This document shows, in pieces, positions 39,034 through 47,272 of a stretch of DNA of 64,000 nt; position 1 is the first letter of the stretch, and the number at the start of each line of letters is the position of its first letter. The notes under the pieces were generated by a model. The model was not told the origin of the DNA. It searched no databases and worked only from the letters and a program-made list of their open reading frames with translations. Source of the DNA: Candidatus Bipolaricaulis sibiricus. GTDB taxonomy: Bacteria > Bipolaricaulota > Bipolaricaulia > Bipolaricaulales > Bipolaricaulaceae. The stretch lies in contig CP034928.1 of the NCBI GenBank assembly GCA_004102645.1, positions 310,001-374,000 on the forward strand. The letters run 5' to 3'. The position numbers and the translations under genes are program-made.

Positions 39034-39062
39034 TTGACAGGCACGGACACCGGATGTATAAA
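39034..39062 (+). promoter_or_regulatory. Consensus promoter for the second peptide transporter cluster
   Basis: TTGACA (39034-39039) and TATAAA (39057-39062) are spaced by exactly 17 bases. The ATG at 39075 lies 12 bases after the -10, so the leader would be only about six bases with no Shine-Dalgarno sequence. An in-frame ATG at 39054 overlaps the -10 region and is unlikely to be the start. Confidence 0.7.
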
Positions 39063-39074
39063 CCGCTGCTCGCC

Positions 39075-40052
39075 ATGATCTCATATGTAGTACGGCGGCT
39101 CCTGTGGGCGATCCCGGTTCTTCTCGCGATCATGGTGGTTACGTTCTTCCTGGCTCGTGCGATCCCGGGAGGCCCGTTCGACTTCCGGGGTGAGAAACAG
39201 CTCCCGGAGACGATTCGCAAGAACCTGGAGAAGAAGTACGGCCTGGACCGCCCTTTGCACGAGCAACTGGGCCGCTGGATCTGGGACGCGATCCGGTTCG
39301 ACTTCGGCCCCTCCTATGCCTCACGCGCACAGACCGTCAACGACATCTTGGCCCGGACGTTCCCGATCTCCTTCCAGCTGGGAGTCCTTGCCCTTCTGCT
39401 TGCGCTGTGCATCGGCATCCCGATGGGAACGATTGCGGCCATGAAGCAGAACTCGATCATCGACTACGGGGCAACGTTTGTGGCCATTCTCGGTGTGTCC
39501 ATGCCCACGATGGTCATTGGTCCGCTGCTGATGTGGGTGTTTGCCCTCATCCTGGGGTGGCTGCCGGCAGCCCGCTGGGGAACCGACTACACGCAGCTCT
39601 ACCTGGGGTTCTTCCCGAACATCTTCTCGAGCAAGTTCTGGCTCCACGCGATTCTGCCCTCGGTCACGCTCGGGCTGGCCTACTCGGCATCCATCGCTCG
39701 GCTCACGCGGGCCAGCCTTCTGCAGGTGATCCGCGAGGACTACATGCGCACGGCATCTGCCAAGGGCCTGCCGCAGCGGCGGGTGATCATCCTCCACGGA
39801 CTGCGAAACAGCCTGATCCCCGTGGCGACGGTGCTGGGGCCCATGTTCGCGGGGATCGTGACGGGCAGCATGGTTGTGGAACAGATCTTCGGAATCGCCG
39901 GGATGGGGAAGTACTTCGTGACCTCGGTGACGAACCGAGACTACCCCCTGATCATGGGAGCCGTTCTCCTCTACTCGGTGCTCCTTGTTGCTGCCAACTT
40001 GCTCGTGGACATCAGCTACGCCTGGCTTGATCCGAGGATTCGGTACGACTGA
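39075..40052 (+). CDS. Peptide ABC transporter permease (DppB/OppB type)
   Basis: A 325-residue permease with an N-terminal helix ([32 protein letters not shown]), the EAA loop [29 protein letters not shown], and the end [10 protein letters not shown]. It opens a three-gene cluster (permease, permease, SBP) without its own ATPases. I preferred ATG 39075 to ATG 39054 because the latter lies in the promoter. The gene order, permeases before SBP, differs from the other two clusters. Confidence 0.9.
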
Positions 40053-40054
40053 CC

Positions 40055-41050
40055 ATGGCTCGCCTGCGACGACGTCGCGAGTTCGAGGAGCTACGGGGGC
40101 GCAGTCCCCTTCAAGACGCATTTCGACGCCTGTTCAAACATCGTGCGGCAACCGCTGGAGGGGTGTTTGTCATCCTTCTCGTGTTGGTGGCGCTGTTTGT
40201 GGACACGACCATCCCCGCCGCGATCTTCGGTTGGGAGACGAGACCCCTCATTGCCCCGAAGCACTATGCGGAGACGAGCTTTTTCGAGCGTGACCTGCCA
40301 CCAGGGACCCCGGGGTTCCCGTTGGGAACGGACTACCTGGGGCGAGACATCCTGAGCCGAACTCTGTACGGGACCCGGGTGTCCCTCTCCGTTGCGGTGG
40401 TGGCGGCGACAGTGGCGCTGATCGTGGGGCTTACGTACGGCGTGATCTCCGGGTTTGCCCCTCCGGGTGTGGACAACGCGATGATGCGGTTCGTGGACTT
40501 TCTCTATGGATTCCCGTTGCTCATCTTCATCATCCTTCTTCAGGCCCTGTTCAAGGCGATCAGCCGTCGGGGCGCAACGGGGTTCGTGGGGATGATGGTG
40601 GGCATTGACAAGGCCCTGGGCGGGATGTTCTTCCTGTTCGTGGCGCTGGGGATTCTGAACTGGATCGGGATGGCCCGTCTTGCGCGAGGGCAGACGCTGT
40701 CGGTCAAGCAGAAGGAATACATCGAGTCGGCCCGGGCCCTCGGGGCCGGCAATCTGCGCATCGTGTTCCGCCACGTGCTCCCCAACATCATCGGGCCGTG
40801 CATCGTCTCTGAGACGCTGGCGATCCCTGGGTACATCCTGACTGAGGCGTTCCTCAGCTTCATCGGGTTGGGCGTGACGCCGCCGACCCCGAGCTGGGGC
40901 CTCATGATCTCGGAGACGTATCAGGGGATCCGTACCTACCCCTGGGAGACCCTCGTGCCGGGGGGGGCCTTGGCGATGACCACGCTTGCGTTCAACTTCC
41001 TGGGCGACGGGCTGCGAGACGCCTTTGACCCCCGGTTGAGGGGGACATAG
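40055..41050 (+). CDS. Peptide ABC transporter permease (DppC/OppC type)
   Basis: A 331-residue permease starting two bases after the preceding stop. The OppC N-terminal domain (RHRAATAGGVFVILLVLVALFVDTT in divided form) is followed by FPLGTDYLGRDILSRTLYGTRVSL and an EAA loop EYIESARALGAGNLRIVFRHVLPN, then ILTEAFLSFIGLGVTPPTPSWG. Between helices it has an insertion around AISRRGATGFVGMMVGIDKALGG that is longer than in E. coli DppC. It ends DAFDPRLRGT. Confidence 0.9.
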   Translation: MARLRRRREFEELRGRSPLQDAFRRLFKHRAATAGGVFVILLVLVALFVDTTIPAAIFGWETRPLIAPKHYAETSFFERDLPPGTPGFPLGTDYLGRDILSRTLYGTRVSLSVAVVAATVALIVGLTYGVISGFAPPGVDNAMMRFVDFLYGFPLLIFIILLQALFKAISRRGATGFVGMMVGIDKALGGMFFLFVALGILNWIGMARLARGQTLSVKQKEYIESARALGAGNLRIVFRHVLPNIIGPCIVSETLAIPGYILTEAFLSFIGLGVTPPTPSWGLMISETYQGIRTYPWETLVPGGALAMTTLAFNFLGDGLRDAFDPRLRGT

Positions 41051-41184
41051 TGCCACTTTATCTTGTGTAGATCAGGCCAGTGCCTGGCGAGGGGGGGTGG
41101 TGAGCGGAGAGAATCGGAAGGGCTGGGATAGCAGAGGAAGTGCCTGGTATTCGTGTTGCGGTGGGGATGCAAAGGAGGTTTGCG

Positions 41185-42909
41185 ATGAAGCTGAGCAGGT
41201 TGGCGGTGTTGCTCGTAGTTGGGCTGATGGTGTGGCCAGCGTTTGCGGCTCCCGTGATCCTGAACCGGAACCTGGGCACCGAACCCCCGACGGCGGACCC
41301 GGCGTTGGGCGAGGACACGACGTCGATCGAGATCATCGAGCACATGTTCCTGGGGCTGGTGGACCTCGACGAGAACACGATGGCGCCCATTCCCGAGCTC
41401 GCCAAGACGTGGGATGTCTCGGCAGATGGCCTGACGTGGACGTTCCACATGCGGAACGACGTGTACTGGGTAAAGTTCGACGCCAAGACCGGGAAAGTCG
41501 TCTACGATCTTGACGCCAACGGCCAGAAGCGCCTGGTCACGGCGAACGATGTGGTGTACGGCGTGAAGCGGACGCTGGATCCGGACACAGGTTCCAACTA
41601 TGCCTACGTTCTCTACATCATCGAGGGCGCGATCGAGGCCAACGAGGGAACGGGATCCCTGGACGCGGTGGGTGTGAAGGCCCTTGATCCGTTCACAGTT
41701 CAGTTCAAGCTGATTGCCCCGGCGGGGTACTTCGGCCAGATTGCCTCGATGTGGGTGGCCCGGCCCCAGCCGCAGTGGGCAATCGCGGCGCACGGTGACT
41801 CGTGGATCGAGCCGGAGAACATCGTCACCAACGGCTCCTATGTCATGAAGTCCTGGGTGCACAACGACAGCACGGTCTTTGTCCGCAACCCGTACCTTCC
41901 GGATGAGCTGTGGGGCGGCGGGAACATCGACGAGGTGCACTGCGTGATGGTCGTCGAGGCCTCCACCGAGTTCGCGATGTACCTCAACAACGAGCTCGAC
42001 ACGGCGGGCGTGCCGCTGCCGGAGATGGACCGGGTGAAGGCTGATCCGGTGCTGTCCAAGCAGCTGACGATCCGGCCGTTCCCGTGCACGTACTACTACG
42101 GGTTCATTGTCACCAAGAAACCGACGGACGACGTGCGGGTACGCAAGGCCCTCTCGATGACGATCGATCGGCAGACGCTGATCGACCAGGTCACCAAGGG
42201 AAACCAGCTCCCGGCGAACACGTTCGCGGGTGGGACCATCTTCGGAAACGCCGCCCTCGACCCGCGGATTGCCCCGTGGGCCCTTCCCGAGAAGCTGGGC
42301 GGGTGGGGCTACGACAAGGCCGTCACCGAGGCCCAGAACCTGATGAAGGCCGCGGGCTACCCCGACGGGCAGGGCCTGGAGATCGTGCTCATGCACAACG
42401 TGTCCGAGGGCCACGCGCGGATCGCTCAGGCGATTCAGTCCATGTGGCAGAAGGCGTTCCCGAAGGCGAAGTTCATCATCGAGACCCAGGAGTGGAAGGT
42501 CTACCTCCAGACGCTGCTGAAGACGACGCCGGTGGAGAACGTCCCCAACGTGTACCGCCTGGGCTGGTGCCAGGACTACCCGGACCAGAACAACTGGGTC
42601 CACGAGGTGTTCAACCCCACGCTGGGGGAGAACAAAACCCGGATGAGTGCTGACGACCCGCAGGTTGGAAAGTTCGTGGCCGAGTTCGACCGGCTGACGA
42701 CGCTCGCGGGCCGGCTTGCGGATCCGGCAGAGCGCGAGGCGCTGTACTTCGAGGCGGAGCGGCTGCTCGTCGACGAGATCGTGGCCATCGCCCCGATCTA
42801 CTACTACACGCAGATCAGCCTCAACAAGCCGTGGCTCGAGCGGCGCTGGCATGACACGCCGCACTGGGACACGTGGAAGATCGACGCGGCCCTCAAGGCC
42901 AAGGGCTAG
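41185..42909 (+). CDS. Peptide ABC transporter substrate-binding protein (OppA type)
   Basis: A 574-residue exported family 5 binding protein. The signal peptide is MKLSRLAVLLVVGLMVWPAFA, with cleavage before APVIL and no lipobox. It resembles OppA/MppA proteins: NRNLGTEPPTADPALGEDTT, EIIEHMFLGLVDLDE, LAKTWDVSADGLTWTFHMRN and VRVRKALSMTIDRQTLIDQV. The aromatic-rich start 'NLGTEPPTLDPA' usually indicates an oligopeptide ligand. The start is fixed by aaaggagg just upstream. It closes this cluster and is followed by a clear terminator. Confidence 0.9.
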   Translation: MKLSRLAVLLVVGLMVWPAFAAPVILNRNLGTEPPTADPALGEDTTSIEIIEHMFLGLVDLDENTMAPIPELAKTWDVSADGLTWTFHMRNDVYWVKFDAKTGKVVYDLDANGQKRLVTANDVVYGVKRTLDPDTGSNYAYVLYIIEGAIEANEGTGSLDAVGVKALDPFTVQFKLIAPAGYFGQIASMWVARPQPQWAIAAHGDSWIEPENIVTNGSYVMKSWVHNDSTVFVRNPYLPDELWGGGNIDEVHCVMVVEASTEFAMYLNNELDTAGVPLPEMDRVKADPVLSKQLTIRPFPCTYYYGFIVTKKPTDDVRVRKALSMTIDRQTLIDQVTKGNQLPANTFAGGTIFGNAALDPRIAPWALPEKLGGWGYDKAVTEAQNLMKAAGYPDGQGLEIVLMHNVSEGHARIAQAIQSMWQKAFPKAKFIIETQEWKVYLQTLLKTTPVENVPNVYRLGWCQDYPDQNNWVHEVFNPTLGENKTRMSADDPQVGKFVAEFDRLTTLAGRLADPAEREALYFEAERLLVDEIVAIAPIYYYTQISLNKPWLERRWHDTPHWDTWKIDAALKAKG

Positions 42910-44968: not shown

Positions 44969-44998
44969 TTGACGCCCGGGGGGCACTCGTTGTATCCT
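44969..44998 (+). promoter_or_regulatory. Promoter for the duplicated micro-proteins
   Basis: TTGACG (44969-44974) and TATCCT (44993-44998) are spaced by 18 bases. The transcript would have a leader of about 100 bases before the first micro-protein ATG at 45112. Confidence 0.55.
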
Positions 44999-45111
44999 GC
45001 GGCGTAACCTTCAATCAACGGTCAAAGGAGGGGAGAGAGGGCAGAGTCGTGGTGGGTGATGGAAGTTCGTACCGGCAACACACATCCAGATGGGACCTAA
45101 GGAGGCGAATG

Positions 45112-45222
45112 ATGAAGTGGGGAGAGAAGGTCGCGAAGAAGCTGAGCGTTCGGGGGCTGTACGTTCTCATTGCGGTGACGCTGCTGGCGATGCTGAGCGG
45201 GGCCAACCACAAGTGGGGATAG
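45112..45222 (+). CDS. 36-residue membrane micro-protein, copy 1
   Basis: The product has a Lys-rich amphipathic start (MKWGEKVAKKLSVRG), a hydrophobic segment (LYVLIAVTLLAMLSG) and a polar end ANHKWG. The ribosome-binding site aaggaggcg precedes two adjacent in-frame ATGs (45109 and 45112); I use the second because it matches copy 2. It could be a membrane peptide, a regulatory peptide for the downstream HD-GYP protein, or an exported signal peptide; no known family is recognised. Near-identical duplication and a dedicated promoter argue for real expression. Confidence 0.6.
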   Translation: MKWGEKVAKKLSVRGLYVLIAVTLLAMLSGANHKWG

Positions 45223-45262
45223 GGCGAGGCGAGGAACCAGATCTGACCGAAGGAGGGAGACG

Positions 45263-45373
45263 ATGAAGTGGGAAGAGAAGGTCGCGAAGAAGCTGAGCGT
45301 TCGGGGGCTGTACGTTCTCATTGCGGTGACGCTGCTGGCGATGCTGAGCGGGGCCAACCACAAGTGGGGCTGA
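45263..45373 (+). CDS. 36-residue membrane micro-protein, copy 2
   Basis: Identical to copy 1 except that residue 4 is Glu instead of Gly, a single base change (GGA to GAA); the stop codon differs (TGA for TAG). The ATG follows its own aaggaggga. It lies 84 bases upstream of the HD-GYP gene. The 151-base offset between copies covers the gene and its ribosome-binding site, consistent with recent tandem duplication. Confidence 0.6.
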   Translation: MKWEEKVAKKLSVRGLYVLIAVTLLAMLSGANHKWG

Positions 45374-45457
45374 GGTTGGGTTAGATAGCACGAGTCTCTC
45401 CAAAGGGGCAGTTCACCAGCCAGGCTGGAGGTTACGGTGTTCGCAGTGTAGAGTGTA

Positions 45458-46714
45458 ATGGTGAGCCACCTGCCCTGCGGAGCGCGGGTCTACTGGGGGT
45501 TGGTAGTAGGAGCCGGCATCCTCTGCGCGGCTCTCTTTTTGCCTCAGGCAAGACTGACTCCGCAGTTCCTGACGATCTGGGCGATTCTCGTGGTCCTCGA
45601 GTTTCTGTCCGAGATCTACGAAGTTGAGCTTGTCGTACAGCGGAAGACGTCAACGGCGATGGCTATCTGTGCCGTTGCGATCTACATTGGCGGTACTCCT
45701 CTTGGGATCCTTACGGTTCTTGCGGGGTCTCTGGCTGCCGAGATTCTCCTTCGGTGGAGCAAGCTGCGTCAAGGTCCCGCCAGGTTCCTCACCTATGTTG
45801 GGTTCAACCTTGCCCAGCTTGTGCTGTCAGTCACCGCGGCGGGTCTCGTCTTCCGGTTCGCCGGCGGCACGCCCCCCCCCTACACCAGCTGGATGCAGTT
45901 CGTTCCGCTCCCGGTGGCGTTCCTGGCCTACGTCATCACCAACACGTCATTGGTGGCGGGGATCATCCATCTTACTGAAGGGGTGCAGCTGGGCTACCTC
46001 CTGCGGTTTGACCTCCGCCATCTCCACATTCAGCTGATGACGTTGGGGGTGCTCGCCATCCTCATGGCGATCGTGTATCCCCTGTCGCCGTGGTACGTGC
46101 TTCTGGTGGGGAGCCCGTTGATGGTTGTACAGATCTCGATCCGCAGCTACGCGCGGCTGCGTGACCAAGCGAAGGAAGCCTTCCAGCGGATCGCCGAGAT
46201 CGTCGGACAACGTGACACGTACACCGGAACCCACTCCGCAGAGGTGGCGGAGTTGGCCACGAAGCTGGCGCGGGCGGTCCGGCTTCCCGACGAGGCCGTC
46301 GACCAGATCGGTGCGGCAGCCCGCGTGCACGACCTGGGGAAGATCGCTGTGCCAGACCGCATACTTCTCAAGCCAGGCAAGCTCAGCGAGGACGAATGGG
46401 CGGTGATCAAGCGTCATCCCGTGACAAGCGCGGAGATCCTCGAGGGTCTGGAGATCTACGAGGGGATCACGGACCTCGTGCGGCACGAGCACGAGCACTG
46501 GGATGGGGGTGGGTATCCCGACGGCCTGGCCGGTGAGAAGATCCCCTTGGGGTCGAGGATCCTCGCTGTGGCCGACGTGTGGAATGCCCTTACTACCGAC
46601 CGCCCGTACCGCAGGGCGTACGGCCACGAGGAAGCCCGCAGGATCCTCCGGGAGATGGCGGGGACGGTGCTCGACCCGAAGCTGGTGGACGCGTTCCTTG
46701 GGCGTGTGGTGTAG
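45458..46714 (+). CDS. HD-GYP domain protein with N-terminal multi-span sensor domain
   Basis: A 418-residue protein. Residues ~1-215 contain about six or seven helices (YWGLVVGAGILCAALFL..., MAICAVAIYIGGTPLGILTVLAG..., FLAYVITNTSLVAGIIHL...), a MASE-like membrane input region. Residues ~230-418 are an HD-GYP phosphodiesterase that would hydrolyse cyclic di-GMP (or another cyclic dinucleotide): His291-Asp292 in VHDLGKIAVPDRILLKPGKL, HEHEHWDGGGYPDG with the GYP triad at 352-354, and AVADVWNALTTDRPYR. All catalytic residues visible in active HD-GYPs are retained. It begins 84 bases after the micro-proteins and is followed by a DUF5317 protein. Confidence 0.88.
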   Translation: MVSHLPCGARVYWGLVVGAGILCAALFLPQARLTPQFLTIWAILVVLEFLSEIYEVELVVQRKTSTAMAICAVAIYIGGTPLGILTVLAGSLAAEILLRWSKLRQGPARFLTYVGFNLAQLVLSVTAAGLVFRFAGGTPPPYTSWMQFVPLPVAFLAYVITNTSLVAGIIHLTEGVQLGYLLRFDLRHLHIQLMTLGVLAILMAIVYPLSPWYVLLVGSPLMVVQISIRSYARLRDQAKEAFQRIAEIVGQRDTYTGTHSAEVAELATKLARAVRLPDEAVDQIGAAARVHDLGKIAVPDRILLKPGKLSEDEWAVIKRHPVTSAEILEGLEIYEGITDLVRHEHEHWDGGGYPDGLAGEKIPLGSRILAVADVWNALTTDRPYRRAYGHEEARRILREMAGTVLDPKLVDAFLGRVV

Positions 46715-46717
46715 CTG

Positions 46718-47272
46718 ATGCCCCTTCTGTGGGCGGTTGCCATTGGCGTGGTGGCAGGGCTCCTCCGTCGTGGGAGCCTGACGAACCTTGGTCAGCTGAA
46801 GCTCCGCTGTCTGTGGTTGATCCTCGTCGCTCTCCTCATCCAGGTGCTCATCTTCCCGCTGGGCTCGAGCGGGCCCCTCCTCTCCGTGGGCACCGCGTGG
46901 CTCCACATCGTGTCCTACGTCTTTCTCATCGTGTTCGTCGTTCTCAACCGACGTTACCCGGAGATCCTCGTCATGGGGGCTGGGCTCGTTCTCAACCTCG
47001 TTGTCATCGCTGCCAACGGCGGGTACATGCCGGCCTCGACCACCGCCCTCACCCGGGCGGGGCTCCCCGAGGTGGCCACGGCGTTGGAGGAGGGGGTCGG
47101 CCTGGGGAACACGGTGTTGATGGGAGAGAGGACGCGGCTCAACTTCCTCGGGGACTTCCTCTACCTGCCGGCTGGCGTGCCCCTTGCCTCGGCGTTCAGC
47201 ATCGGGGACATCGTCCTGGGTCTCGGATTGGCGCTTCTCCTCGCACGGCGGATGGTGCGACCGGACCGGTAG
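46718..47272 (+). CDS. DUF5317 membrane protein
   Basis: A 184-residue protein with five to six helices matching DUF5317 (N-terminal WAVAIGVVAGLLRRGSLTNLGQLKLR, the middle LHIVSYVFLIVFVVLNRRYPEILVMGAGLVLNLVVIAANGGYMPAS, and the end FSIGDIVLGLGLALLLARRM). The function of DUF5317 is unknown, but its members are often encoded beside HD-GYP genes, and this ATG lies three bases after the HD-GYP stop. The two are therefore probably one operon and may form a sensory pair. Confidence 0.8.
   Translation: MPLLWAVAIGVVAGLLRRGSLTNLGQLKLRCLWLILVALLIQVLIFPLGSSGPLLSVGTAWLHIVSYVFLIVFVVLNRRYPEILVMGAGLVLNLVVIAANGGYMPASTTALTRAGLPEVATALEEGVGLGNTVLMGERTRLNFLGDFLYLPAGVPLASAFSIGDIVLGLGLALLLARRMVRPDR

Follow-up and report, generated by a model that had tools for sequence, protein, structure and literature searches.

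In the SHP/Rgg and ComS/ComR systems of streptococci, a tiny open reading frame (ORF) for a basic and hydrophobic peptide lies beside the gene of its receptor, and the functional part of the peptide is its C-terminus, which is rich in Trp in tails of the ComS type. Small proteins of the MgrB/SafA type span the membrane once and act on membrane sensor kinases. The locus described here lies in a window of 64,000 nucleotides (the whole stretch that was analysed, read on the forward strand) from Candidatus Bipolaricaulis sibiricus and consists of two micropeptide genes followed by the genes of a membrane HD-GYP protein and a DUF5317 membrane protein. It resembles the streptococcal systems in having a tiny ORF beside a presumed receptor gene and a functional C-terminus, an analogy in action and not a relationship: the receptors of SHP and ComS are cytosolic RRNPPA regulators, whereas a c-di-GMP phosphodiesterase in the membrane is presumed to be the receptor here, the organisms belong to other phyla, and the peptide had no sequence family match. 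The conserved neighbor of the peptide genes is the MASE9-HD-GYP gene, and no adjacent gene for a cytosolic HTH-TPR (RRNPPA) receptor was found.

In Rap-Phr systems, Phr propeptides can carry duplicated units, with several pheromones per propeptide, and the duplicated units serve one cytosolic receptor, whereas the present locus repeats entire genes and its presumed receptor lies in the membrane (PMC11343458). An arrangement of the AgrD/AgrB/AgrC type was not seen, the neighbors being HD-GYP and DUF5317 genes instead of genes for an AgrB peptidase and a histidine kinase; nor is there a candidate thiolactone residue, as no conserved Cys occurs in the alignment of 58 peptide members. The likeness to proteins of the MgrB/SafA type is one of role only, since no sequence similarity was found, the partner here is an HD-GYP enzyme and the peptide genes form arrays.

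Peptide genes and partner proteins in the window

The window genome is a single contig of 1.70 Mb (99.8% complete), whose named relatives are Candidatus Bipolaricaulota/Acetothermia. Translation of the ORFs and analysis of the Shine-Dalgarno (SD) sites confirmed two 36-codon ORFs that differ at one residue and have strong ribosome-binding sites of their own, as claimed by an earlier sequence-only reading. Both are on the forward strand, at 45112-45222 (copy 1, MKWGEKVAKKLSVRGLYVLIAVTLLAMLSGANHKWG, with an additional in-frame ATG at 45109) and 45263-45373 (copy 2), and encode MKW[G/E]EKVAKKLSVRGLYVLIAVTLLAMLSGANHKWG, the sole difference being Gly or Glu, respectively, at position 4; the 35 compared codons contain one nonsynonymous and no synonymous difference. 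Each is preceded by a strong SD site, AAGGAGG, in the contexts CTAAGGAGGCGAATG and CGAAGGAGGGAGACGATG, and the genome contains no further copies. The promoter postulated ahead of the ORFs was recovered as a putative promoter-like site, TTGACG-N18-TATCCT (44969-44998, forward strand), with nine of 12 consensus matches in a scan of 2.8 kb that found three such sites versus 0.3 expected. A search of the window against Rfam revealed tRNAs only and no match at the peptide locus. Just upstream on the same strand (39054-42909) are oligopeptide-type ABC transporter genes, which encode a family 5 binding protein along with two permeases. Genes of this kind are also present ahead of the peptide in one further family and in several more genera.

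The HD-GYP gene (45458-46714, forward strand; 418 aa, with GTG at 45461 as an alternative start) begins 84 bases past the second peptide ORF and encodes a predicted multi-span input domain, both features as described by the sequence-only reading. Its catalytic domain (46196-46684, residues 247-409) matched PF13487 (HD_5) with 137.6 bits and, in Foldseek, the solved HD-GYP domains 4mcw, 4r8z and 9rbz. The catalytic motifs (HD, HDxGK and GYP) are intact, with H259, H291-D292, K295, H320, H345 and G352-Y353-P354 being invariant, and the protein is predicted from its sequence to be a phosphodiesterase that hydrolyzes c-di-GMP. No other HD-GYP gene is present in the genome; the same genome encodes three GGDEF proteins, and the c-di-GMP signal can thus be made.

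The input domain (45458-46162) did not match PF20972 (MASE9) in the window protein itself; four homologs (L154, L169, L263 and L265) scored over the cut-off and 16 of 31 phylum relatives matched at E<=0.1, by which the domain would belong with MASE9, a family for which the literature searched describes no accompanying peptide. In Foldseek, the AlphaFold2 model of the domain (mean pLDDT 92) was matched to TmRibU with a probability of 1.00 and a TM-score of 0.62 of the target but an E-value of only 0.03; the matches to BioY (TM-score 0.63, E 0.7) and ThiT were weaker. The predicted fold therefore resembles that of the vitamin-binding ECF S-components RibU, BioY and ThiT; unlike these, the domain is fused to an enzyme instead of being paired with EcfT, and the window protein had no match to the ECF S-component families of Pfam.

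The third, conserved member of the operon, the DUF5317 gene (46718-47272, forward strand), starts 3 bases behind the HD-GYP gene, and its product matched PF17248 with 126.2 bits versus a cut-off of 25. The protein and its homologs share invariant NGxMP and SxGD motifs, and its model (mean pLDDT 94) had no fold match in the PDB, possibly representing a new membrane fold. The invariant SxGD and a second Asp raised the candidate of a GxGD-type intramembrane protease, which was unsupported because there was no fold match and the Asp residues are 18 residues apart.

Distribution of the peptide family and its linkage to HD-GYP genes

A homolog search in related genomes, proposed by the sequence-only reading, found the family phylum-wide: of 100 Bipolaricaulota genomes, 58 had a tblastn match to the window peptide at E<=1, and an iterated profile on six-frame translations located about 84 copies. 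The members share a signature consisting of MKWG, a variable basic or charged part, a hydrophobic segment and GAxxKWx, with W3, K34 and W35 invariant in 58 aligned phylum members. Within the genus, pairwise dN/dS was mostly 0.1-0.5 (mean pS 0.34, mean pN 0.10) and third codon positions varied most, so that the amino-acid conservation asked for by the same reading is borne out as purifying selection. An SD match of at least six bases preceded 85 of 113 peptide starts, compared with 12 of 70 HD-GYP starts and 34 of 768 random ATGs. Homologs across the phylum, dN/dS and SD sites together reject the possibility that these are chance ORFs. The sequence-only reading knew of no described family with this sequence, in agreement with the literature searched and with our database searches, in which no consistent match was found for the 58 members in Pfam or, as a profile, among PDB sequences, nor for four members in NCBIfam.

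One to five tandem copies occur per locus and arrays of two to five are common, although assemblies often break inside the arrays, a copy being located within 200 bp of the contig or locus end in 20 of 76 loci. Paralogs in other genomes have diverged except for their tails, whereas the window copies are nearly identical. In one genome, two copies 8 kb apart (L058:3961-4071 and L058:11819-11929) differ mainly in the tail (NHKWC vs HWKWC), and the first of these is followed by antisense ORFs resembling transposase instead of an HD-GYP gene.

Linkage to HD-GYP and DUF5317 genes, which the sequence-only reading had set as a test, was observed throughout the phylum and then in three further phyla. 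In Bipolaricaulota, 65 of the 69 sensor loci have a peptide gene within the 450 bp preceding this HD-GYP gene; the four exceptions were two contig ends, one N-filled locus with copies further off and one aberrant sensor lacking HD. Among 20 further loci, all with enough upstream sequence had the peptide, bar one aberrant HD-less gene. The input domain is present in 72 of 100 phylum genomes, nearly always once. Clustering of the neighbors showed that the same HD-GYP family directly follows the peptide in nearly all loci and is usually followed by DUF5317; the upstream genes vary between families while the order peptide-HD-GYP-DUF5317 persists. Peptides with no sensor in view were at contig ends, except for one copy beside a transposase-like antisense ORF. 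A divergent MASE9-like membrane protein that stands alone and lacks HD-GYP (L133:7663-8600) has a weak peptide-like ORF, ending in SAANDKFCC, just upstream.

The same gene order, with a shorter upstream peptide, was found beside the DUF5317 relatives of other phyla: peptides of about 23-33 aa precede homologous genes of Bacillota, Chloroflexota and Actinomycetota. For example, in Bacillota relatives of Carboxydothermus, nearly all of 40 loci have a micro-ORF like MKLFKVLMALATLVLAGGAGFRWGP or MKFNATLVKILLALMALVLAGGANFKLG upstream of HD-GYP. An HMM trained only on Bipolaricaulota peptides and run on the micro-ORFs in the 500 bp upstream of the sensor scored at least 7 bits at 55 of 79 sensor sites in other phyla, as compared with seven of 2075 control windows. 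Several of the misses were second tandem HD-GYP genes behind a peptide-bearing first, and two tandem MASE9-HD-GYP genes behind a single peptide gene were seen in L262, L263, L264, L306, L308 and L312; the second enzyme may have lost parts or be degenerate. As judged from these sequence matches, the peptide family occurs in at least four bacterial phyla. Of 14 control genomes, two (Thermotoga maritima and Thermus composti) had a match, in each case to both MASE9 and DUF5317; DUF5317 relatives were not found on viral contigs, nor was there an input domain on plasmids. In many Bacillota loci, among them L248, L260, L274, L275, L279 and L280, the peptide is preceded by a conserved cytosolic ORF of about 100-130 aa (...ATLxAxNRR...); a 60-residue piece of it had no Pfam match.

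When genes were sampled by MASE9 instead of DUF5317, a peptide scoring at least 5 bits was present at 30 of 39 MASE9-HD-GYP genes versus about one of ten MASE9 genes without HD-GYP. The latter include four MASE9-GAF-GGDEF proteins (L335, L348, L352 and L354, all lacking an adjacent peptide), a MASE9-GAF protein and a histidine kinase, and the peptide is specific to the HD-GYP architecture; as a universal companion of MASE9 it was rejected, being missing at the MASE9-GGDEF genes. Some of the genomes with MASE9-GAF-GGDEF also carry the peptide-MASE9-HD-GYP operon, and the opposing enzymes, GGDEF and HD-GYP, may share one sensor type.

The C-terminal tail and possible modes of action

Outside Bipolaricaulota, conservation was confined to the C-terminus, where a small residue and Gly-Ala are followed typically by x-hydrophobic-[K/R]-Trp. 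In copy 2 of the window the tail, A-N-H-K-W-G (45353-45370, forward strand), contains the invariant K34 and W35. Counted over pairs that are not independent, tail identity within arrays was 0.85-0.99 even with N-terminal parts 20-80% identical, as opposed to about 0.5 between genomes at equal divergence of the N-terminal part, and within-array pairs had 68 synonymous versus seven nonsynonymous differences in the eight tail codons compared with 104 versus 101 in the 14 codons preceding them. Because the tail codons differ mostly synonymously and those of the preceding segment do not, the tail is the part held by selection; the synonymous differences also show that gene conversion alone does not account for the identity of the tails. 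A tail whose sequence is specific to the lineage is what one would expect if it were the end of a ligand, recognized by a receptor that evolves along with it, and not if it served to arrest ribosomes. The residue K-3 is Ala, Gly or Ser in all 53 members outside the phylum and in 57 of 66 inside, and position -3 is often S, G or L; such small residues before the tail would fit either a signal-peptidase -3/-1 site or small-residue helix packing. After correction for HD and DUF5317, peptide divergence tracked that of the sensor with partial r of 0.32 and 0.19 in two phyla, but in one phylum distance correlations also pointed to DUF5317, and in Bacillota they pointed to the HD domain as well, and since the partial correlations are not clean in Bacillota they carry little weight.

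We consider it probable that the window ORFs are genuine genes and belong to a widespread family of micropeptides that is the dedicated partner of MASE9-HD-GYP phosphodiesterases, as a ligand or as a membrane subunit; an action of the peptides on the HD-GYP protein is our inference. Given its strong ribosome-binding sites and, in many cases, more than one gene copy, the peptide would be made in excess over the enzyme and would insert in the membrane with its basic N-terminus inside. The tail (small-Gly-Ala, then x-hydrophobic-[K/R]-Trp) would be exposed on the outside, where it could stay attached or be freed through a cut by signal peptidase after Gly-Ala. Recognition of the tail by the S-component-like MASE9 domain, in which DUF5317 may take part, would set c-di-GMP hydrolysis, whether upward or downward. 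An invariant Trp3 would be odd for a mere signal peptide. Three observations weigh against MASE9-HD-GYP as the partner: MASE9-GGDEF proteins have no adjacent peptide, so that MASE9 alone needs none in cis; the Bacillota peptide also correlates with the HD domain; and some Chloroflexota peptides lie directly before DUF5317 without HD-GYP, by which DUF5317 could be the real partner. In the Chloroflexota loci L285, L286, L288, L289, L292 and L293, a peptide-like ORF ending in GAPxDGGG is located 2-9 bp before DUF5317, with no HD-GYP gene between.

As a ligand, the peptide might be exported and cut after Gly-Ala, releasing a Trp-containing pheromone of four to nine residues to be sensed by MASE9 in quorum or self-sensing control of c-di-GMP. 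We regard this as a tentative possibility, in keeping with the short hydrophobic run (median 15-17), basic N-terminus, small -3/-1 residues and tail of 4-9 aa, the multiple gene copies, and a tail that is common to all paralogs of a genome but differs between genomes while the N-terminal parts are free to diverge; oligopeptide ABC genes just upstream, in the window's genus and some others, point the same way. It is harder to reconcile with Glu at the proposed -1 position in nine of 66 phylum members (in one lineage), with the conservation of Trp3 in the N-terminus within the phylum, and with the facts that no dedicated exporter or protease was identified and that DUF5317 had no fold match. The peptide may instead, about as tentatively, remain uncleaved as a single-span subunit of a MASE9-HD-GYP or DUF5317 complex, with a role comparable to that of MgrB with PhoQ. 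The Lys-Trp pairs that flank the span on either side within the phylum, the GG/GA small-residue motif at the helix end and the strict operon linkage are consistent with such a subunit, as are the few bases between peptide and DUF5317 in some Chloroflexota, whereas the hydrophobic run is very short outside the phylum and array-specific selection on the tail would be less likely if the helix served packing alone.

That the peptide is a leader or nascent-chain arrest peptide like TnaC, SecM or MifM, controlling downstream translation in cis, seems improbable. A short ORF directly upstream, with a hydrophobic segment and a conserved Trp-containing C-terminus, would suit this role, but arrays contain up to five complete copies, each with its own SD site, and the tails are lineage-specific although the ribosome is universal. 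In addition, the spacers have no terminator-like site and no Rfam match, and their folding does not surpass that of shuffled sequences (z about +1), grounds on which an RNA element or attenuator in the spacers was also rejected. Small hydrophobic tandem peptides resemble Ldr/Ibs arrays in outline. The sequence-only reading had held independent membrane peptides to be equally possible, but a peptide of that kind located here by chance, for instance a lysis peptide or a toxin of type I, is now very unlikely, given that the peptide is linked to the same gene family in four phyla, that the genome has a single locus and that Rfam gave no antisense RNA family match in the window.

Meaning for c-di-GMP signaling

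The signals sensed by HD-GYP enzymes with membrane input domains are, to our knowledge, mostly unknown, and we know of no function for MASE9 or DUF5317. The literature searched had no mention of DUF5317, and its only text match to MASE9 was one unrelated cancer review, which does not prove absence from the literature. In a census of c-di-GMP sensory inputs, the terms 'small protein' and 'autoinducing peptide' never occur, and the sole mention of MASE is of MASE1, listed with domains that have no discernible purpose (PMC8846402). The family has been missed by annotation as a whole because its members are only 23-50 codons long. A micropeptide almost obligatorily tied to MASE9-HD-GYP in four phyla represents a concrete candidate ligand or subunit, and the linkage makes the question of what the HD-GYP sensor perceives directly testable. 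It is conceivable, as a tentative extension, that Bipolaricaulota, Bacillota, Chloroflexota and Actinomycetota have a peptide-signaling system in which an S-component-like membrane receptor fused to HD-GYP reads the lineage-specific Lys/Arg-Trp tail that a micropeptide of 23-50 residues sets free or presents, with DUF5317 as an accessory or processing protein. If true, this would be a peptide-controlled c-di-GMP phosphodiesterase and a previously unseen peptide-signaling system.
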